A DNA stretch of 64,000 nt from Polytrichum commune (Eukaryota > Streptophyta > Polytrichopsida > Polytrichales > Polytrichaceae). A program made the position numbers and the translations under genes. The notes below the pieces were generated by a model, which searched no databases, was not told where the DNA came from, and saw nothing but the letters and a program-made list of their open reading frames with translations. Below are positions 771 through 50,739 of this stretch, piece by piece; position 1 is the first letter of the stretch; each line of letters begins with the position of its first letter. The stretch spans positions 20,026,001 to 20,090,000 of the forward strand of contig OX485803.1 in assembly GCA_950295325.1 (NCBI GenBank), in the 5' to 3' direction.

Positions 771-1345
771 ACAAATGAGGAATTAGTCTACTCTTTCTTT
801 TGATATTGCAATCTTGTTGACATCGTTTCTAGCCGACCCTCGGTTCACTGCATGACCCTTACCTTGGCAGGTTTTAGGCGCGATGGAGGGTATCCGCCGC
901 CAAGCCCCGGACCAACAGCGCATACAGAGGCGGGATGTGAAGCTGTTGGAGCGAGAGCTTGCATTCGCCAGAACCATGAATTGGACGAAGATGCCCTGCC
1001 CTTGTCGGATACATATGCGAGAGGCGGAGCTCACCATTGCATCGTATAAGCGGTGTGTCAGGACAAATTCGCGACACCCGTGGTTTTATGGAGCCACCGA
1101 GGTGCATAAACTTTGTTTGCATCTCTTTGCATGCATTGGTCCTGCCTCCACGGTGTATTACCTGAATGCATTGTCGTGTTCGCGCATGAGCGTGTCAATA
1201 ACAGATTAGTGAGCTTTCAATTCATGTATACGAAAACTTTGGATGTAGGGTTGCAGATATCAGTTTGTGGACATCGGGATACCATTTTTGACGCAGTGTG
1301 TGATTTTATGTGAATCTTTATGTCAAACAAAGCCAGGGTTTTGCC

Positions 1346-4300
1346 ATGGATGATTCGGACGATGAATGGGAGGGGCACATAACGTGGTATTATGGGGCTC
1401 AGGCAAGGGCGTGTCCAAATGCACTCAGAAGGAGGGATTTAGATCCGGGTATGGATATGAATGAGATGGTGGTTCGGAGTCTTGACATCGTGGATAGGAT
1501 TCGAGAGGAGGCAGCGAACGACCGCGAGCAACCTGCAAGTCCGCAACGCCCTCCTGCAGCAGAGAATGGACCACCAAGTCCCAAAATCCTTCGTGGAGCG
1601 GCTGGAGTCCAAGATATGGAGGTCGACCGTGAATTGGAGGGGTCCCAGCGCAGAGAGGACAGTGCGCATGCTAGTCCACTGCGCGGAGATTCTCCGTTCC
1701 AAGACGTCGATGAGTCGCATGGGCAGTACGACGCAGAGGTTCGTCGAGAGGAAGTTGACCCGGTACAAGGAAACTATACCTCTGAGCAAGACGAGCTCTC
1801 AGATGACGACGAGGCTATGGACTGGGGAGAATCCGAAGACGAATCAGACGCGGCGGTAACTGCGTTGGAGGAGGCTGCCGCGACCCCATTGTTTGCTGGA
1901 TCCAATCACTCCAGCATGGGCACCACTTATGTTCTTCTAAGTGGAGGAAAGCTGAACGGGTGCTCCGACACATACATGGACGAGCTCTTCCGAACGCTGA
2001 GTAGCATGATACTTCCGCAGCCAAACTCGTTGCCTAAGTCGTACCGAGAGGCGTCAGAGTATCTACGTAGGCTTGGTCACACTTACAAAACCTATGACGT
2101 GTGTCCCAATAACTGCAAACTTTTCAGGGGGCCGCTGAAGAATGCCAGAGTTTGTCTGGACTGTAGAGCTCTGAGAAAGAGGCAAGTCGGGCGATCACAA
2201 GTACCCCACAAGGTCTCCAGAGTGTTTCCTTTGACTGCCCGTTTGAAGCGAATGTTCCGAAGTCCCATGCAAGCGGCTGCAATGACATGGTGGGCAACAC
2301 TCGCCAAGGAGGATGGCGTGATGAAACATGTCTCAGACTCAGCTCAGTGGAAGTGGGTTTCCAGCCGCTTTAGAGAAGAGTTCGGATATGACGACAGAAA
2401 TGTCCGCATGGCCCTCGTTACAGACGGTTTCAATCCAAATTCAGATAAAAGAGGGACGTATTCCATCTGACCCATCTTGTTGATGAACTACAACATAGCT
2501 CCTTGGCTCACCACCAAAAATTACTTCATTATGCTTGCTGTGTTAATTCCTGGTCCCAAATCTATTACGGCTGAGCATTTTGATGTCTTTATAGAACCTT
2601 TGATAGAGGAGTTGTTGAATCTGTGGACCTATGGCGTATACTGCTTGGATGTGGCACAGTATAAACAATCCTCCCATTTTGTTCTGAAAGCCATGGTGAT
2701 ATGGACAGTTGGGGACTTTCCTGCTTACGGGATGTTGGCAGGTTGTACAACTAACGGATTTGTGGGTTGCCCAGTATGTGGAGAGGGGTTCAGGTCCAGA
2801 AGGTCTAAGGTTCTGCATAAGAACATTTTTTGCGGGTGTGCCCGCAGATTTCTCGTTGAGGAGGATCATCATTTGAGGTTTGACACTGAAAATTTCAGAG
2901 AAGTGGAAGACCGCGTGGCGCCAGTCCCGGTGTCTGGAGCCACGGCCCTTGCTAATGGGCAAGAGCGACTTCGCTGGCTTCGAGAAGAAGGGACGCCGGC
3001 AGAACACGACCCGGTCCGACGCAATGGGATTAAGCGTGTATATTCTCTTTTCCGCCTGCCATATTGGAAGGTTCGGAGGCTACCATTCATTCGTGCGCTA
3101 ACCTGCTCCATGTCCCTTGTGTATGTTTCGCTAGTGCAGAGTCATTCAATTTAAATTCCATTCCTCGTATGCTCTTTCGTATTCAGTGGTTTAGGCTATT
3201 CGAGGAAGACAAATCAAAATCCTAGGAATTCACAAACCTGATTCTCCTCCGACAGTAGATTAGTCCAGAGATGTTCCTGGCTGAGTGTTGGATTCTGTTT
3301 TGCTATTGTCACGCCATGAAACAAGGTGCAATTGAACACAGTGTAATTTGCTATGTATTGTGGAGTGGACTGTGACTAGAATGCCCACTACTTTCGTTCG
3401 TACCGCACTTGTATCCAGTGCTGGGATCGCACCTTTTTGCTTTGTTGTGATTGAAGGGGGCGCTATCTGGTATTTGCAGTATCTCGTTTTAGCGCTCATT
3501 TTATTTGTGGCATGATATTGTTGGAAGTTGAAGGTGAGCCACCACAACCCGTCCGATGAATGAAGCCTTTGTGGAAGATGAGAGGTTTCTGGTTTCGTCT
3601 TGTGGATGCCTCACAGTCTGCACGATTAGATAGGAGTGGTCTGGTAATGGTGCGTGCTGGATTAGGCTCACGAGTGTGGTACTTGTGAAGAAGAGTGTAG
3701 ACACCAGAAACGTGTGCACGGTGTGCCCTTTTAATTTAAATGGGAATTGCTACGGCGCATAAATTGACTCTCTTTGTGCTTTGTAGAACCTTTCATTGTT
3801 GCCCTTAATTTGGCAGATGTCTATAGTGTGTCACTAAATGGACGATGAATGCTGTCCGATTGGACCGCGGTGTTGTTTCCATGTCTACACAGTCTATGCG
3901 CTGGCAATGGCATTAACATATTTGTCATTGCTGACAGGAGCTTCCAGTGAGGCATACTCTGGATGTTATGCACGTTGAAAAAAACGTAGCAGCAACCATC
4001 ATGGGGTTCCTCCTGGGTGACGACGACACTATAGCTGTGTGGAAGGATCTGCAAGAGTGTGCGGTGATGGAGGACCTGCATTTAGTGAGAGAAGGAGATA
4101 CTAACAACTTCTTGATGCCTCAAGCACCGTATGTACTGCGTCCAGGAGAGAAAAGACGCGTGCTAGAAACCATCAAGAAGGTGCAGGTCCCGTCTGGTCA
4201 CTGTGCTAATTTCGCAAAATTGGTGAATCTAGAGAAGGGCAAGTTGCAATTTATGAAGAGCCACGACTGGCATGTCCTGATTGAAGAGATTCTTCCGGCT

Positions 4301-5993
4301 GCACTTCGGGGGTCATTGGTGGAAGGACCGCGTGTCGCAGTGATCCGATTGGGCCACTGTTTCAAGCGATTTTGTGAAAAGGTGATTCTCGTAAGTGACC
4401 TACCCACGCTCCAAACCTACGTTGCTGAAACATGTGCGTTGTTCGAGATACATTTCCCCCCGGCATTCTTTAACGTCATGGAACATCTTCCACTACATTT
4501 GCCTAGGGAGTTGTATTGGTGTGGTCCAGTCCACGCCAGGTGGATGTACAGCGTTGAAAGGTATCTGGGACATTTGAAAAGCCTTGTTAGAAACAAAGCT
4601 CGTCCAGAGGGGTCGATGGCCATGGGTTACATGTACGAGGAGGCTTTGGGGTTTGTCACGGAACATTTCAGACTTTACCCCGTATCGGCAAGACTCATAT
4701 GGGATATGGACGAAGATGAGCAGGACAGTGGAGAGGTACTTGAGGGACGCGGCCGAGACCAGCATTGGAACGACGAAGACCTGAAGGAATTGCACGAGCA
4801 TATTATCCGCCATTGCGAGGCCACGGATCATCTGTACATGTAAGTCTATGAATATAGTGCTGGTTGTTAATGTATAGCAGGCCGCTATGCATTCCGTTAT
4901 TGTTTGTGTGGATTGTTTCATGAGTCGTCTTCAACTTCGCTCAGTTGTGAACATTGTCTCCATCTGAACTCATGTTGCCGCACCTTCGGCGACAGGGAAT
5001 ACATGGCTCTTCAGAGACTCCAAGCTGCACGAATTCAACGTCGTTTCCCTCCCTTTTCGGACTGGCTTGAAGTACGCGTGAGAGAAATGAGCAGCGCAGG
5101 TGAGAACCCATCGGAAGACCTCATCACTATGTCTCGACTTCCCTCTCCAATCGTGAAGCACTATATATCCATGTGGGCGTATGGATATCACTTCCGCGCC
5201 GAGGACGATAGAGGCAGGAGCCATGTATCTTTCGACGCAGGGGTAGCTGCGATAATCAATCAAACCTGCCGCTCTTCTAGAGCAGATCGACATCCAGTAG
5301 AAGCGGAACTCCTTTACGTGGGTGTGGTGAACGACATTCTGAGGGTGGACTATGGGCACCTAACTCACAATGTTCTTAAATGTTCGTGGATCAAGCCACA
5401 TCTTGAGGGCGTGCCCACAATCAGACGCGATGAGGATGGGTTTTGGTTGGTGAAGTACAAATCCCGGCAGGCACCTGCACTGGAACCGTACTTGATGCCG
5501 GCCCACGCTCGCCAGGTACTGTTTACGATCCCCCCCCCCATTTATCCAGTGTGTTCCCACATTGCTCCGATTACAGATCACATGATCTTAGAGGCGTTTG
5601 AATGACCGCATGTTAAACCCAGTTCTATATGTGCAGGTGTACTTTGTGGACGATCCGTACAATCTTGAGTGGAAAGTGGTGCGGTATAAAGATCCACGTT
5701 CAAGACGGGTGACTGATGCACTCTCGGAAGGATCCCTGTCTGCACCTGGTCGTGCTAATGCTACACGGAGTATCCGCAATTTTCCACGCCACGACGATTA
5801 TTTGAACGAATTGCCGCCAGAGCCTATCCTACATGCCGATGTTCAGCATGTTATGGCCCACGAGGAAGATGACGACGAGGCAGCCCACTTTGAAGTTGAT
5901 CATCACGATTTGTCAGAGGATGAGCCAGAGCAAACTCCCTACGAGGCTCAAATTCCGTCGGTGGTAGTCGATGAAGCTATTGATGACGCTTAG
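1346..5993 (+). pseudogene. CACTA transposase (Tnp2-like) gene, four exons, one in-frame nonsense codon
   Basis: Model: exons 1346-3070, 3938-4839, 4996-5515 and 5637-5993, all with GT..AG introns and matching phase, about 1,167 codons. Exon 1 starts with an acidic, low-complexity N-terminus (MDDSDDEWEG). It then has a Cys-rich motif (YDVCPNNC, CLDC) and the Transposase_21 core (MTWW.., VTDGFNP, PGPK, DFPAYGML, CPVCGEGF). The first splice joins LPYWK to ELPVRHTLDVMHVEKNV, a hallmark of the family. Exon 2 carries the DUF4218 region (LPLHLPRELYWCGPVHARW, SVERYLGHLKSLVRNKARPE). Exons 3-4 carry the DUF4216 region (YVGVVNDILRVDYG, VYFVDDPYNLEWKVV). The only break found is TGA at 2468-2470 in the same frame, where relatives have Trp (STWPV context). 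A TGG-to-TGA change is the likely cause. The rest is open, so the copy died recently or is read through. Family assignment is firm. Confidence 0.88.
3071..3937 (+). other. Long intron 1 of the CACTA transposase gene
   Basis: This 867-bp stretch begins GTTCGG and ends CTGACAG. Removing it joins two halves of a motif conserved across Tnp2 transposases. No other coding or repeat content was recognised in it. Short ORFs in it on both strands look like chance. Confidence 0.7.
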
Positions 5994-6530: not shown

Positions 6531-8051
6531 CACATTTTATTGCTGTATTTGAATTAGGCACCTTACAGCATTTAGATACATCATTCACATGTATCGTACC
6601 TAACGTTTGTTTGAGTCTTCTTGTTTTGGCAAACAATGACCTTTTCAAGTTTGTCACTGTTGAATGGGGTTCTTCGAGTTTAAGGATCACAAGTTGAGAT
6701 TTTCACCTTCCACCAGATTTGAAACAAGAAAAAAAGGCAAACATTAATAACATGGCGATCAGTAATTAGAGTTGGCAAGCCCATTGTCTGTGGTATGTGT
6801 ATCACACATGAAGGCTTATGATCTCGGATTGGTGACCGGTGGGTGGTACGTAGATCTCTTCTGATTTTTGGCTAGGGAGTGATCATCTCTACATCGAAAT
6901 GATAACAATCTAAAGGGTGTATGTGATCGTTGAAAGAAAGAGAATCTTCACTTTGAACCCTCACAACTTTGAACCTTGAACTTCTGCATCTCTACTCTGA
7001 AAGTTGAATTTGAATCATGAATTTCTATTCGTGATATGCAATTGCTAACTGGGCGAGATAACCCTGGTTGATGCAATAGCCAGACATGTTTGTGGAGTTG
7101 GAAGTGGCCACATACATAGACAGACAACTTCCTTGCTTTGTTTCTCTTACTAATTTGCTCTGTGCTTGTGAATTTTCTAGGTGTCACTGAGGACCAATTT
7201 AAGGAGGGACCGTCGTACTCGGAGGATATGGGTGCTGTCTACGCCAAGTCGAAACTGTAAAACTGTGAAATGGGTTTCACCACCAAAGTAAAATGCTCAG
7301 GGCGCCAAAATTGACATCCGACACTTTGAGCAAACTAAAAGTTCTGGTGAGAAATTGAATAGAGTCATTTAGAATATTATTGCATACTTACATGTACAGC
7401 AATTTTCTATCTGCCTGCAGGCACTTAGTACGAAATTTATCTGAGATTCATTCATGAGCCGCTAACCTCTCGAAGTGCATTTCATGTGAGGACCAGATCA
7501 TACGGAGTAATAGTTTTACGTGTCATTTTCTGGCCATGGCTGTAATTGCACTTGATGATGAGTAAAGTTGTTCATGTAAATTTCATCACTTCTTTCAAAT
7601 CACTTGCAATTAATCAGATGAATGTTTGGAGCGTGAGCATTCTAGAAGTGTACATACTTTGAAAAGGTTTTGCGCTACCTACATGTGATTGAATTTCTTG
7701 CTCTCTTCCGTTCTGAGTAGCACGGTCAGCATTCATGACACTTAACAATCGAATCTACTTAAATTCTGTCCTCATTTTCCATGAAGGGAATGGATTTACT
7801 TGCAAATGTTGTCACTGTGCAACAAACTGGCTGAATTTTTTTTGTTGGTTTCTAAATAAGTAAAAACTTGAGCAGACTCGTCAGCATGTGCATCTTGGTA
7901 ATTGTTTGCTCTGGTCGTTTTCTCGCTGGATATTTGGAAGCCACTTCGCTCACCTAATAATCAAAAACCTAGAATTTTATATGCGATCTTCTTTGGTGCA
8001 CACTTTTGCATTGTGCAGTCAATCTCACAAGCTCACCACTTAATTTAAATA
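6531..8051. other. Non-genic stretch, one doubtful exon-like segment
   Basis: No gene, RNA or clear repeat was recognised. At 7183-7259 a TTTTCTAG acceptor-like site precedes a short open frame ending FKEGPSYSEDMGAVYAKSKL and a stop. It could be an orphan last exon, but no family was recognised and no upstream exon was found. The rest is AT-rich. Confidence 0.4.
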
Positions 8052-44224: not shown

Positions 44225-45336
44225 CTTATACCAATTCAATTTTTTACTGTATTTTCTCTGGAGCAATCTCTTTGAAGTAAGTTATCACTTACCCAGATTT
44301 TCGTTGAAGAAGCTCACATGCCCAATTTTTTTCTGCCTCTGGCGCTCCACAAACCACCTGACATTATGCTCTTGCCTACATCAAAACCCTTAGATCCTTA
44401 AACCCCAAAACCCTCAATCTCCTCCGCTCGGTCTTTTGTGGGCCTGGGAATCGAAAACCCAGAAACTCAAATCCAAGCAATTGTTAGTGTAAGTTAGCAT
44501 CCGATCCTTTAAGCTAACTTACATACCGAGAAAAGTCTTGGCCTACTGTGTGGGTGATTTTGAAGCTTTTGTAATTTGTGATTTTGAAGCTTTGTTCCTA
44601 GTGAGTTGCAATGGATCCGTGTGATCTTCGCGTGATGTTTCGCAGAGAGAGCGCCGAAAGCTTCATGATCTCCGTTGGATGAGTTCAAGGAAGTTTGGAT
44701 GGATGGCAAGTGGTCGTGTACACTTGGCATCACAAAGTGGGAACACAAGTTTGAAAGGCCAGCCACACAAAAGAGTCTCCTAATAGAATTTCAAATTCGA
44801 CGCTTTACATGTACCTAAAATGGTGGAGCTTTGGTTTCTCTATATATAACTTTTCAAGTTCAGACCCAACTTTGAAATTGTAGTCATTGGAGATAAGTTT
44901 TCATCAATCGGACCATGCATGAAGTTGATATTAGTTTATATTTATCTCACAAAGGTTATTGCACTTTGCCACTCTAAGGATTAGCCAGTTTAAAACCATC
45001 ATGATGTAATTTCAGCCTCATTAGGCTTTTGGCTTCCTGGACTTTAAAATCAATTTCATTTCATTTCATGAACTTTCTACAAATTCAAAAAGTTTGGGTT
45101 TGAACTTGGAAAAATGATTTAAGAAGAAAGATGGGGATGAGCATGATAAAAAAAACTCCTCCATCTTAGGGGCATGTGAGGTGGTTTAGTTTCCTAACAC
45201 CTACCAAGGGAATTATAATAAAAACTTGCCCCTTATAGGTTGGTTGTTGATTCTTCCTAATTTAGCATCTCTAGACTAATTCGGGTCTGTAATCCTAAAT
45301 TAGGGTATTAGCTACATATACCAATAGGCGACACTC
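44225..45336. other. Intergenic stretch between the ABC1 kinase gene and the long-TIR unit
   Basis: No conserved exon or paired repeat was recognised. Near 44525-44590 a short phrase (GTGATTTTGAAGCTTTTG) is doubled. The right end is AT-rich and holds CTAAATTAGGGTATTAGC just outside the TIR. Confidence 0.4.
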
Positions 45337-45584
45337 TAGGGTGTACCAAAAGGGCCATGTATTGACAGCCGTGCAAAAGCACAGGCCACCCGCGGTTGAG
45401 CCCAGGCCACCCGTGGTAGAGGGCAGGTCACCCGTGGTTGAGCCCGGGGTGCCTGTGCTCCGGGGTAATGCCGTTGAGAGCGAAAATTTGCGACCTACCC
45501 GCTCCGATTTATCATCCATTTAATTTGTTTTCATTCATTGTAGAAGCCGCTGGAAACGCGTCAGCTGCCGCACTCCTCGTCTTC
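45337..45584. repeat. Left 248-bp terminal inverted repeat
   Basis: It starts TAGGGTGTACC and ends CTCGTCTTC. Four ~21-bp subterminal repeats of the GGCCACCCGTGGTTGAGCC type lie at about 45380-45465. The 3' part, after TTGTAG, looks like the start of an exon reading rightward. Confidence 0.85.
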
Positions 45585-46182
45585 TCTTGGTACACTTCTT
45601 CTTGCTATGTTTTGGAGTCGATCTAGGGTTTCAGATCCCTTGTGTCCGATCGCGAACGCTTTCAGTTCTTCCTTCCCAATCACATAAGCAAGAGAATTTG
45701 GCGCCTTCAGAGTCAGAAAAAGTCGGAAAACTGGTGGCTTGCGTTCAGCAGGCCGCGCTCTCTCGCTGATCTCGCTGTTTGTCTCCCTATTTGCAGCTCC
45801 AGCTTCTGTCGTTGGGAAGCTTTCTGAGTTTCTGTGTCGAGCATCACGGTTTTAGAATCAAGTAAGTGTAGAGCAATCTGTACTTGGTCCACAATCATTT
45901 TTTCATGCTAACTTGCAGCTCGTAGTCGTAACCCTGAATCTCTAAATCTTTAGGGGTTATTCATTAATGTTGGTTCGTTTGGGTGCACAGCTCATGCACG
46001 GTTACTATAGGATGGCTTTCGAATCACTATAGTGGTTGGTGCTCATTCCCCTATGTTTCTCTTATTGCATGGCAAAGTTGTAAGGAGTCTCAATGATTCT
46101 TCATCATTTGTAAGTTGCAGGGAGTATACTAAAGCTATTCATTGTTGTTTGTACTATTTGTGGCGTTTCTTACAAATCGCAG

Positions 46183-46324
46183 GAGGAAGCAGCTATCCAG
46201 GCAACAAAGTTTGAGGGATACGAAGTTGCTTCTTACTACACACCTGAAGAGGACAGCCAGCATTTTCATGTTTGACAAGCACTTCGAATATCTTCGAGAA
46301 ATTGGGCATGGATCGTACAACACG
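46183..46324 (+). pseudogene. Exon-like segment of unknown gene inside the long-TIR unit
   Basis: Bounded by acceptor AAATCGCAG and donor GTTAGT. One frame is open throughout (RKQLSRQQSLRDTKLLL, then FEYLREIGHGSYNT). The end recalls a protein-kinase glycine loop (IGxGSYxT), but this is too short to assign. Another frame is open for 30 codons (EEAAIQATKFEGYEVASYY). It may be an exon of a captured gene. Confidence 0.3.
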
Positions 46325-47297
46325 GTTAGTGAAATTTTTGGCATATTTCGGTTTGTGTTATAGTTTTGGTGGGGTATTCGTAAGGTTTGTGAACGATATG
46401 TCATAAGTGTCTGATTGTGTCATGCCGATGGCACTTAGGTTGAGAGAATAAGTATGTAAGTAAAAAAGAAATAAGTCACATATTCGAAGCTTGAGGTGCA
46501 TGTTCTTGTCAGGACGTGTTTGTTGAATATCTGTTAAACTTTATTGTATTCGTTTTCTTGATCTGTACTACTTAGTCTTCATGTAATGTTTTTTTAATAT
46601 TCGTCTTGAAAGGGGTATCTGCTGATGAGAAGTTGTAAGGTCATATCTAGGCGGTCGCATTTTCTCGCACCTCCGTTTGTATGGCAAACGTACCAGTTGG
46701 TTCAAACACTCACATAGTGGTTTGCTGGTCAATAATTGCTTAAGTAGTAATTACTTTCAAGAGTTCATGGGTTGAAATCGTGTTGGTTTGGTTGTTTGGT
46801 ACTGAACATTTAACTGGAGGTTACCTAGAAGGCGGAATGAGACTCTAGATAGTTTCCAAATTTGTATTCAAATTCCTAGCACAAGAGCCAGTAATTTGAC
46901 CGGATAACATGTGTTTTTGTGAGATTCTCTTAGTTTAATTGATAGTGTGCGCATATAAAAACCCTTTAGTGAGGCAGTGTCCTCTACAGTGCAACTGTTT
47001 GCAGCAACATATCGGAGTACATTGTATGAAATCCTTAGCAATACGTTTTTTCTATCAAACCTCATAAAAAAATAGGAGCTTCGTTACCTGTCAAATTCTT
47101 AGATGCAGCATATTCACCTTCTGAACAGTCTGGATACTAATCTAAGATCATTATATACACCATTATTTGCTTTGCATTATCATGGTCTGCGTAATGCAAT
47201 ATCGAGACTCTGTTTTCGACCAAGCCTCTCCACTTCATATCTACAATCATGTACAAAATCATGACATTATGTGTTGGTGTGGGTGATTATTTGGCAG

Positions 47298-47548
47298 GTG
47301 TGAGCATAAAGGAGTTTGAGGAAGCTTGTCAGAAGGCAACATGCGTGAACATAACCATCACATACATGGACCGGCAACCGGGGGATTACGCTGAGGTTTA
47401 CAGCGATCCAAGAAAAATCAAGAGTGAGCTCAATTGGACTGCGCAACACACAAACCTGACAAAAACGCTACAATTAGCGTGGAAGTGGCGGAAAGCGCAT
47501 CCCAGGGGCTACATTGTTCGAGGTAACTTGTCACATATTACCGAATGA
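47298..47548 (+). pseudogene. UDP-arabinose 4-epimerase C-terminal exon fragment
   Basis: Acceptor TTTGGCAG precedes an exon encoding GVSIKEFEEACQKAT, then RQPGDYAEVYSDP, KIKSELNWTAQHTN, LAWKWRKAHPRGY and a stop at 47546-47548. This is the C-terminal end of the plant MUR4/UXE family of Golgi UDP-xylose/UDP-arabinose 4-epimerases (GDYAEVYSDP.KI..ELNWTA is diagnostic). The Rossmann-fold Gly motif and the catalytic Tyr-x-x-x-Lys region are absent, so it cannot be functional alone. The last residues (IVRGNLSHITE) differ from the family tail. It ends inside the 3' end of the opposite gene. Confidence 0.75.
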
Positions 47549-49658
47549 TTTATCCATGATATTGTAGCATATTTTGCGGTACATTGTATCCATGTCCTTA
47601 TACAGTGGAAGATAGAGTTTTTCAAAGCATGTTGATGAGGAGATAAGAGGGTCATCTGTCCTATCAAGGAATTCAATACTGACTACCTTGCCTCCAAAGT
47701 ACTCGTTCCCTGTGATGAAAACAGCAAGTCTTGATCGTTCACTGTACGTCATTTTATGAACACATGCTCTGAACATGTTTTCCAAATAACTAGGAATTGT
47801 GCTAAAGAAATTGCACATGGCGAGGAACTCAGATGCTTCCATAGCATTCTTGGCACTGAATATTACACGCAAGGTGTCTACTGTAAGGGCGTCCAAAGAC
47901 TCTGTCATCCTTTGCTTCTCCGGAATAGAAGTGTTTGCATGTTCAACTACAAGGTAAAAGCCCTCCCTCATAGTTTTTCCAATTTCTAGTCTCCCATTAA
48001 ATAGGTGACTGAAAATAATACTTCCCAACTTGTCTTCCACTTGTTGTTCCCAAGTTGCCTCTTCAAGTGTAAATCCACTAAATGTCCACCCAAGGTCTCC
48101 TAGCTGATTATTTTATAATTCCTTGATCAAGTTTGTAGCAAATTCAAAGCTAGTCCTTAGAGGAACTAGAAGGGACCATGTTGCTCCCCAACCTAGGCGG
48201 AAGTCCCTCTCCAATGCTTGGCGGGTATCTGGGCAAACTGAAGATGATAAATTTGTTGATGTAGGCACTTCATTGCAAAGCATCAGAAGCGTTGCAAATG
48301 AAAATGATTTGCTCACTTCAATGTCATGTAATGTGAGCATGTAAATCAAATGCCCAACCATGCGAGCCAAATCAAGCTGAATGTATGGTCTGACAATGGC
48401 AACATCGACCTTGGGGTGAAGGATCTTCCCTGCCATGTCATCTGGATACTCGAAAACAACATTGTAGTTGAAGGAGCTCCCCCAAAATTGCTTCCAGCAG
48501 TTGCTCAACCATGAATTTGTCAACCCAGAAAGGTCAACTGCAGTTTCTTTAAATCCCAAGGTATGGATTAAATCCACTGATGGCTTGTAGAAATATTCCT
48601 TTATGCTTGAAATCCAATCCCAATGTCTTGTAAATGCTTGAAGTTCTTTACCTTGTGTAACCTACACATGCCACAAATAAGATTGATGAAGTCATGGTAT
48701 AGAAAAGTTTTGGATTTTAAAGTTGGAATTCATCCAAAAATAAAATAAAATAAACCATTACCTCAATGGGTGTAGCTCTTTTGCTTCCTAAGGCATGCTG
48801 AATTGGTTTAAAAATTTGTGATGAGATGTAGAGTCGTTGATATGCAAGGAGAGCTTTATCCACATTTTCCTTTTGCTCAAGTAGTTCAATCTCCTCTTCA
48901 GGGCCATCTATACCATGATAACACATTCTCCGGAGCTGTTGAAATGTGAATGCAGAGAATGCTTCATTATGTATGAAGCTCTGAATGCATGCATCAGTTG
49001 GAGCTTCAGTCTTCTTGAAATCTGGTCCACCGTAAATTCCAAAAGCCTTCGCATGCTCTTTCTCACGACTAGGTGAGCATCTTTCAATAGCTGCCTCTAG
49101 CAAATCCCAGTCCATCCCAAATATTCTTGCTTGAAATTCAAACTCAATTTTGAAATCCGTATCACTGTACATTGATATTGAACTGTGTTGAGTAAGTTTT
49201 GAAAGAGTTGTTTCAGACATTGATATCCCACGCCTTAGTTGTTTTCGCTTCTACATGTTCATACAGACATCAAAGACCTCTCCATTGTGGTCCGAGATGA
49301 CCTTAAACTACCGGGTGATGGTAGAGGGATACCCAAATCTCAAGGAAGAGGTTGGCGGTTCGAATCCCGGCTGTGAAATCTCTTCTCTACTTGACGGAAA
49401 ACTTGCCAGGTGGTGAATTGCCTCCTGTGCTTTGGCGTTGGCCTGTCGGCCTTCTGTCTCAAAAAGAAAAAGAAAAAGAAAAACCTCTCTATTGCCTTTT
49501 AAACTCTGAAAAATATCCTTGCATAAATCCTCAAATGCAGACTATAAAACTTGGGAAGTACGTGCTGAAGCCTCCCTTTTGTCAATTTTATCTTTAAAGT
49601 CCATAGATTCATAGTAAGCAATGTGACAATCCTCCCAAGTAATTGCTAATCTTTCCAT
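47531..49658 (-). pseudogene. Unrecognised three-exon gene of the long-TIR unit, one in-frame stop
   Basis: Exons 49551-49658, 48762-49250 and 47531-48661 have canonical GT..AG introns and phase 0 throughout, giving about 574 residues. The ATG (MERLAITWEDCHIAYY) lies one base inside the right TIR. Exon 2 has KRKQLRRGISMSETTL, then DTDFKIEFEFQARIFG and EKEHAKAFGIYGGPDF. Exon 3 has FWGSSFNYNVVFEYP, RPYIQLDLARMVGHL and LPLYKDMDTMYRKICY. TAA at 48113-48115 (codon 382) interrupts the frame, yet about 190 codons beyond it stay open to TGA at 47531-47533. No transmembrane segment or catalytic motif was recognised, and I do not recognise the family. It could be the element's own gene, a novel transposase or accessory protein, or a captured host gene. 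The single stop points to recent decay, readthrough or a sequencing error. Confidence 0.6.
49270..49490 (+). mobile_element. tRNA-derived SINE in intron 1 of the unrecognised gene
   Basis: A pol III B box GGTTCGAATCC lies at 49357-49367, with an A-box-like GGTGATGGTAGAGGG upstream. A tRNA-unrelated body follows, and an A-rich tail of AAAAAG units ends at about 49485. It occupies about 220 of the 300 bp of that intron and runs antisense to the gene. Confidence 0.7.
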
Positions 49659-49906
49659 GAAGACGAGGAGTGCGGCAGCTGACGCGTTTCCAGTGGCTTC
49701 TACAACGAATGAAAACAAATTAAATGGATGATAAATCGGAGCGGGTAGGTCGCAAATTCTCGCTCTCAACGGCATTACCCCGGAGCACATGCACCCTGGG
49801 CTCAACGACGGGTGACCTGGCCTCGACCACAGGTGGCCTGGCCTCAACCGCGGGTGGCCTGTGCTTTTGCACGGCTGTCAATACATGGCCCTTTTGGTAC
49901 ACCCTA
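49659..49906. repeat. Right 248-bp terminal inverted repeat
   Basis: Reverse complement of 45337-45584 with about 96% identity. On the minus strand it supplies a presumed promoter and leader, an acceptor-like TTGTAG and the last leader bases before the ATG at 49658. Confidence 0.85.
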
Positions 49907-50739
49907 ACGCTCACATGGCGGAAGTGTGTTCCGCCATGCGCCTAGCAGAGGTCCAAGTGGGCCCCCGCGGTTGGTTGGTGGGGGGTGCGTTCACACCACT
50001 ATAGTCATGGTTGATGTGCCAAGCGGATGGGACAAGCCTTACTGCTCTTGCCTCCACCTCCCCACCGCCTTCTAAAATTGCTCCGAGCCCAACATATTTT
50101 TACAAAGGAAATTCCTATAGTATATCAACCTATGACGGTTCTTCTATAGGGCCCCTAATACTTAAAAAAAGAGCACATTGAGGTCCAACACCTCTTACAT
50201 TTTTTGTGTTGTCTAGATGGTTTTCAAACAAAATGGCTATGACAAAGGAATAGAGAATTATAGTTTTTTTTTTTAAACTTTATGGTGGTATTATTAATGT
50301 TTTCAATTCGTAGAGCATGTATAAGACGGACATTGGATTTGTTACATTTTATTGTTGGAGCTCAATAATTTCTAATTGTTGTGGTTTATTATTGGATGCA
50401 ACATTTTCAACAAATGTAATGATGAATTAAGTCTAAATAAAATATCAATTATGATGTGGTAGAGTGCGATGTAAGACATATCACTCCGGAAATGTTGGAC
50501 CGTAAGTATCGAAAGAGTTATATAATAAATTCTATAGCATTTTTGCATTTGGCTTCAAAGTTTACATTATTTATATGTTTCACTATTGATATATTTGTGA
50601 GGCCTCATATACATATTATGAAGCATGTATCTTTAGTTATATATTGATTAGCTCATGATTTTTCTTATGAAACCATGGATAATTTATATAGTTGTTAAAA
50701 ATATATCATTAGAATATAAACGCTTATTATTTGTAGGAA
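49907..50739. other. Right flank of the long-TIR unit with a perfect hairpin
   Basis: A perfect hairpin CATGGCGGAA-5 nt-TTCCGCCATG lies at 49914-49938, eight bases outside the TIR, followed by CGCCTAG. TAGGCG also occurs just outside the left TIR (45326-45331). The real terminus could therefore be a little further out, with the hairpin an insertion in one arm. The rest is AT-rich with no gene, apart from possible decayed transposase sequence after 50450. Confidence 0.45.

Follow-up and report, generated by a model that had tools for sequence, protein, structure and literature searches.

GingerRoot transposons of Selaginella have terminal inverted repeats (TIRs) of 100-150 bp and capture gene fragments, and to our knowledge the IS3EU/GingerRoot-type superfamily has been thought small and rare in plants. 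GingerRoot itself was reportedly described by Cerbin et al. 2019 in Selaginella lepidophylla. We analysed a 64,000-nucleotide stretch of the Polytrichum commune genome (C1:20026001-20090000, contig OX485803.1), referred to as the window, whose numbering is used for all positions given below without a contig name. We conclude, with a probability of roughly 90%, that the unit at 45337-49906 is a non-autonomous, internally deleted DNA transposon of the IS3EU/GingerRoot type, containing a decayed HECT E3 ubiquitin-ligase gene and captured pieces of a WEE1 kinase gene and a UDP-sugar 4-epimerase gene.

In the accessible text of PMC10045372, IS3EU and, for the most part, GingerRoot elements are given TA..TA termini and 6-bp target-site duplications (TSDs), and Ginger1 and Ginger2 are given TSDs of 4-5 bp. 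The available portions of PMC10741241 describe TG..CA ends for Ginger, lump GingerRoot with Ginger at TSDs of 4-6 bp and TIRs of 40-270 bp, and set the TSD of Mutator-like elements (MULEs) at 7-12 bp. Fungal IS3EU elements, according to the consulted sections of PMC12730594, have TAYGG..CCRTA ends and 6-bp TSDs and carry alpha-kinase and TET/JBP genes, the latter exchanged between transposon lineages.

The window unit is bracketed by inverted arms at 45337-45584 (forward strand) and 49659-49906 (reverse strand), each 248 nt long, with 10 mismatches, no indels and 4,074 nt between them, in agreement with an earlier note on this DNA that had described them as about 96% identical and indel-free. 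The left TIR begins TAGGGTGTACC, and the element ends are TAGGGTG..CACCCTA, that is, TA..TA termini. The hexamers directly outside them, ACACTC (45331-45336) and ACGCTC (49907-49912), match at 5/6 positions and form a probable 6-bp TSD. Searching the genome assembly (407.8 Mb in 64 contigs, of which C1-C7, 42-78 Mb each, total about 406 Mb) for the terminus TAGGGTGTACCAAAANNGCC gave 14 sites, the window's two included (13 exact, one with one mismatch), and the reversed-pattern control gave none. A DNA search with the left arm likewise returned 14 matches, including the window's own two and one C7 arm split in two, among which there are inverted pairs with spacings of 6.9 kb on C2, 2.7 kb on C4 and 15.5 kb on C7. 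The 15.5-kb C7 element is flanked by a 6/6 duplication (TAGAAC/TAGAAC), as is a member of a related family at C1:62310946-62325802 (GGGAGG/GGGAGG). The recurrence anticipated by the earlier note was thus borne out, including one pair 2.7 kb apart with different cargo. That note had also pointed out that TIRs confined to this locus would indicate an inverted segmental duplication of a host locus rather than a mobile element. Arms that are 96% identical around two coding regions could be read in this manner, but the same ends at unlinked places, the TA termini, the 6-bp duplications, the transposase between the ends of relatives and the TIR pair with other cargo leave this explanation with a negligible probability.

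The transposase is found in the C2 and C7 relatives, where exons match the integrase-core model PF24764 (E 3e-24 in C2, 4e-33 in C7); we refer to such exons as rva_4. Exons of both elements also match helix-turn-helix (HTH) models, below the cut-off. Genome-wide, PF24764 gave 18 matches, and setting aside three second-exon matches left 15 rva_4 places. A D-D-E triad with spacing 39/32 (counted between motif starts) is constant in the eight rva_4 exons picked up by a search aimed at those motifs, which by its design cannot reveal exons lacking them. The C7 rva_4 exon has no in-frame stop. In both elements the transposase is oriented inward from the right end, with the HECT gene downstream on the same strand. 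Neither the C2 HECT region nor the C7 rva_4 exon matched any PDB sequence at the thresholds used, and none of ten open reading frames from the giant loci described below and from C1:62.3M matched Pfam above the curated cut-off. We infer that PF24764 marks the IS3EU/GingerRoot group. Ginger1 and Ginger2 were ruled out by the TA ends and the 6-bp TSD. The earlier note had suggested a Pack-MULE variant or a new family; a TIR transposon with captured host pieces it is, but the MULE part of this proposal did not hold. Long TIRs bracketing captured host exons, together with a relative whose different cargo is 95-98% identical to C1:379-382 kb and 96% identical to C1:65.985 Mb, are what a Pack-MULE would offer, but relatives with the same TA..TA ends encode an integrase-core transposase and the duplication, where seen, is 6 bp, making a Mutator-like origin very improbable.

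Comparison with the 6.9-kb C2 copy (locus L002) shows how the window copy differs from a more complete relative. Starting at the left end, 3,975 bases of the two align at 94% identity, and a further match (95% over 179 bp) reaches the HECT side of a junction at 49658/49659, where the HECT exon meets the right TIR; the right TIR picks up again at C2-locus position 7329. The interval L002:4648-7328 (2.68 kb), which holds the 5' part of the HECT gene, the transposase and the HTH exon, is missing from the window copy, and the C2 inverted repeat extends 63 bp further inward. The window sequence reads CTTC up to the junction and ATGGAAAG after it, whereas C2 and C7 have GAGTTGGAAA in an open frame. 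The ATG at 49658 does lie where the earlier note had placed it, at the first base inside the right arm, but it sits on this junction and is not a gene start; C2 and C7 have TTG (Leu) there, in mid-frame. Since C2 has a longer TIR, the extra 2.68 kb and TTG in an open frame, the junction ATG and the 248-bp arm length are most simply both breakpoints of one internal deletion. This deletion, of about 2.7 kb, removed the transposase and the HECT 5' end, fused the rest of the HECT gene to position 248 of the right TIR and left an ATG at the fusion point by chance. Because both TIR ends survive and the transposase does not, the window copy could presumably move only with transposase supplied in trans.

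The right-hand gene, which the earlier note had presented as unrecognised cargo of about 574 codons, proved to be the HECT gene of the element family, 5'-truncated and dead. Occupying 47534-49658 on the reverse strand, it matches PF00632 (E 7e-12), with its best stretch at profile positions 162-303 of 306 and the N-lobe poorly matched, and is 92% identical to the C2 copy over 360 amino acids. It is dead because of in-frame stops at 48113-48115, 49251-49253 and 49542-49544; relative to C2, one stop replaces Trp and two replace Gln, and there is a one-codon gap and a 191-bp insertion resembling a short interspersed nuclear element (SINE). The reading frame from ATG 49658 ends after 38 codons, and a TCF motif with the catalytic Cys is found in the HECT frame. 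The SINE-like insertion (49288-49478, forward strand) has, by eye, a B-box-like GGTTCGAATCCCG and an A-rich tail, is absent from the C2 copy, and belongs to a dispersed repeat (2181 first-look candidates, of which 40 were scored). The ratio of nonsynonymous to synonymous substitution rates (dN/dS; here and below, dN/dS and dS are NG86 counts without a significance test) is 0.72 for the window against C2, yet 0.29 for the window against C7 and 0.38 for C2 against C7, so the ratio alone is no proof of relaxed selection on the window gene. The remnant itself has decayed.

These findings bear on the idea that the TIRs are promoter or leader modules selected to express whatever is captured between them. 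An open frame from ATG 49790 in the right TIR does run into the HECT remnant, and the transposase gene of C2 and C7 points into the element from its right end. Nonetheless, the fusion frame from ATG 49790 ends after 82 codons, ATG 49658 lies on the deletion junction, and on the left the epimerase homology starts 1.7 kb from the TIR. In an alignment of 11 TIRs, the acceptor-like TTGTAG, taken in the earlier note as a meaningful signal, occurs in four (the two arms of the window unit, C2 and C5) and is altered or absent in the other seven. A leader function of this kind appears improbable; with TTG in mid-frame at the ATG site in C2 and C7, and a longer TIR plus about 2.7 kb more in C2, the layout looks accidental. 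We also considered whether the right TIR was copied from the left, as a 21-bp unit is common to both window arms and absent from the nine other TIRs aligned. This unit looks like a tandem repeat, however, and the left arm differs as little from the left TIR of C2 (7/227) as from the right arm (10/248).

Two coding regions do face each other between the arms, as previously noted, although the earlier count of exactly two gene bodies is one short, since an exon fragment of a WEE1 kinase gene (49 codons, no stop) also lies between them and the arms, at 46181-46327 on the forward strand. It is 94% identical in amino acids and 80% in nucleotides to C7:3626421-3626567 (22 silent differences and three residue changes among 49 codons), and the exon neighbouring that C7 site matches Wee1 in PDB. 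A protein search with the fragment listed four places, namely the window, the C2 and C5 element copies, whose sequences have diverged from the window fragment by no more than about 2% and 4%, and the C7 site, the one copy among the four outside an element. The claim of a C-terminal epimerase fragment from a host gene on the forward strand was also confirmed. This 3' fragment of a UDP-sugar 4-epimerase gene (47249-47548, with host-gene homology at 47294-47512) matches UDP-glucose 4-epimerases in PDB (best E 4e-8), and is 70% identical in amino acids to C1:25493700 and 63% to C2:37895437; against the nearest host gene it shows 71% amino acid identity and a dS of 1.43. The donors of both pieces were probably functional genes unlike those in the assembly, either a lost or unassembled paralogue or a gene of another species. 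The interior of the C4 element, by comparison, is 95-98% identical to C1:379309-382162 and 96% to C1:65985490-65985823, consistent with a capture that took place recently in this genome. This does not prove which way the copying went, because 233 bases of this interior also match, at 85%, stretches within three giant elements and a C3 place near another terminus.

Several relatives carry the HECT gene as an apparent second core gene. Among 33 PF00632 matches in the genome, HECT domains occur within 75 kb of 7 of the 15 rva_4 places, or of 8 when six extra hits are added; 5,000 runs of random placement gave means of 0.12 and 0.14 linked places and a maximum of 3. A hidden Markov model (HMM) of the window-family HECT, built from three rows, matches the HECT genes of the giant loci at the C-lobe, with E values from 3e-9 to 2e-7, and again in a region lying upstream, with E values from 2e-4 to 2e-3. 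It also matches stretches in the C1:62.3M and C4:29.8M elements, and matched none of eight host-like HECT loci (L054-L061); the HECT of L062, which was a weak hit, is of the giant type. The C1:62.3M element yielded an upstream stretch of the HECT gene but no Pfam C-lobe. A motif search located TCF, which includes the catalytic Cys, in C2, C7 and four giant loci but missed L053, where the HMM did match the C-lobe. Between the C1 and C2 giant loci, dN/dS is low: rva_4 gives 0.08 and two HECT exons give 0.14, with values of 0.20 and 0.38 in two upstream stretches of the HECT region. The corresponding range for HECT between the C2 and C7 elements is 0.30-0.38. In this last pair the HECT gene and the transposase seem to have different histories, because dS is 0.11 (C-terminal part) and 0.24 (N-terminal part) for HECT, as against 1.25 for rva_4 and 1.59 for HTH.

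Such features could also arise if HECT genes were captured repeatedly and independently from the host without a role for the element. In favour of this, host DNA is present in these elements, some transposases have no linked HECT, and dS between C2 and C7 is very different for HECT and for the transposase (0.11 against 1.25). We nevertheless regard independent capture as unlikely, in view of the HMM matches among element HECTs to the exclusion of the eight host-like loci, the dN/dS values of the giants and of C2 against C7, and the retained catalytic motif. We give even odds to a broader proposal, in which a land-plant IS3EU/GingerRoot lineage is a two-gene system of transposase and its own HECT ligase, the latter selected, swapped among transposase lineages and aimed at a host restriction or silencing factor, with some members reaching 38-74 kb. 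In complete elements HECT would help the element, most likely by ubiquitinating such a host factor or the transposase itself. Separately, HECT exons at C6:15366901-15368900 (L052) and C4:7589601-7591900 (L051) share 46-48% identity with the window HECT, and within 75 kb of them the searches listed neither an rva_4 hit nor a terminus of the types sought; they may be old copies or may represent a transposon gene that was domesticated.

In five rva_4/HECT pairs the two genes are oriented outward, with 23-59 kb between them; the ends of the giant family are TATGGAATAC, again TA..TA. The giant terminus TATGGAATACAATATGCAC occurs at 79 sites at one mismatch or fewer (control 0), among which we count 29 inverted pairs less than 80 kb apart; all nine pairs sampled for their flanks have 6/6 duplications. 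Three giants, each with a 6/6 duplication and both rva_4 and HECT inside, measure 38,056 bp (C1:3241636-3279691), 48,734 bp (C4:2945602-2994335) and 73,597 bp (C6:647118-720714), the TIRs of the last aligning over 42 bp only. In these 38-74 kb elements the transposase and HECT sit towards opposite ends and face outward. Their total lengths are very different, which implies variation in cargo or insertions. Further giant copies at C2 31.74M and C5 44.09M are 99.6-99.8% identical over the end regions compared, and no terminus or duplication was found at the rva_4-side edge of the match. As an additional observation, C6:37194162-37321178 holds four successive giant-terminus TIR pairs, with a length of 12.7 kb in two cases and 10.4 kb in the other two, which suggests local duplication.

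A number of results weigh against these readings. The TSD of the window copy is 5/6 instead of 6/6, and no duplication was seen flanking the 2.7-kb C4 relative. The C2 relative is truncated at its right end, where the outer part of the TIR is gone, and its rva_4 exon contains one in-frame TAG. A search for the empty site with the joined flanks gave no clean case: the flanks matched themselves and dispersed repeats at 72-87%, and the one match spanning the joint (C1:76247136, 72%) is too weak for use. Assignment to the IS3EU/GingerRoot group is based on the ends, the TSD length and the Pfam domain. As for the association with HECT, a universal pairing is disfavoured by seven of the 15 rva_4 places, which lack a HECT within 75 kb even when the extra hits are counted. 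Moreover, the linked cases are not all independent, since the compared stretches are almost the same in C2 and C5, and likewise in C1 and C4.

Outside the unit, a perfect palindrome with 10-bp arms, CATGGCGGAA..TTCCGCCATG, was seen by eye at 49914-49938, just beyond the right TIR. Farther away, 1304-5605 contains a series of long open frames, which we take to resemble a CACTA-type (TNP2-like) transposase.

In summary, the window copy itself is a decayed derivative, and its relatives are of greater interest: several members of the superfamily in this genome have what appears to be a second core gene, a ubiquitin ligase, and reach 74 kb with clean 6-bp duplications. If this reading is correct, the family would represent a vehicle able to move tens of kilobases, and HECT would serve a plant transposon for counter-defence or self-regulation. 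Among the papers listed by literature searches, whose scope did not extend to the text of the founding GingerRoot paper, none was recognisable as a report of a HECT-bearing IS3EU/GingerRoot element, and a word search for "HECT" found none in the main text of PMC10045372, PMC12730594, PMC9741609 or PMC4255032. The elements resemble IS3EU/GingerRoot, as characterised in the accessible text of PMC10045372, in their TA..TA ends, 6-bp duplications and integrase-like DDE transposase, and differ in the linkage of HECT to the transposase in part of the family, in sizes of up to 74 kb and in the 248-bp TIR of the window copy. With Pack-MULEs they share TIRs around captured host fragments, but not the transposase class or the TSD length. 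Accessory genes and their exchange between transposon lineages recall the fungal IS3EU elements in the consulted sections of PMC12730594; those carry a kinase or dioxygenase in fungi, and the main text contains neither "HECT" nor "ubiquitin", whereas here a HECT ligase is found in a plant. Helitrons with deubiquitinase (VTD) domains, as presented in the accessible part of PMC9741609, are likewise transposons carrying a ubiquitin-system enzyme, but they are rolling-circle elements whose enzyme removes ubiquitin rather than adding it.

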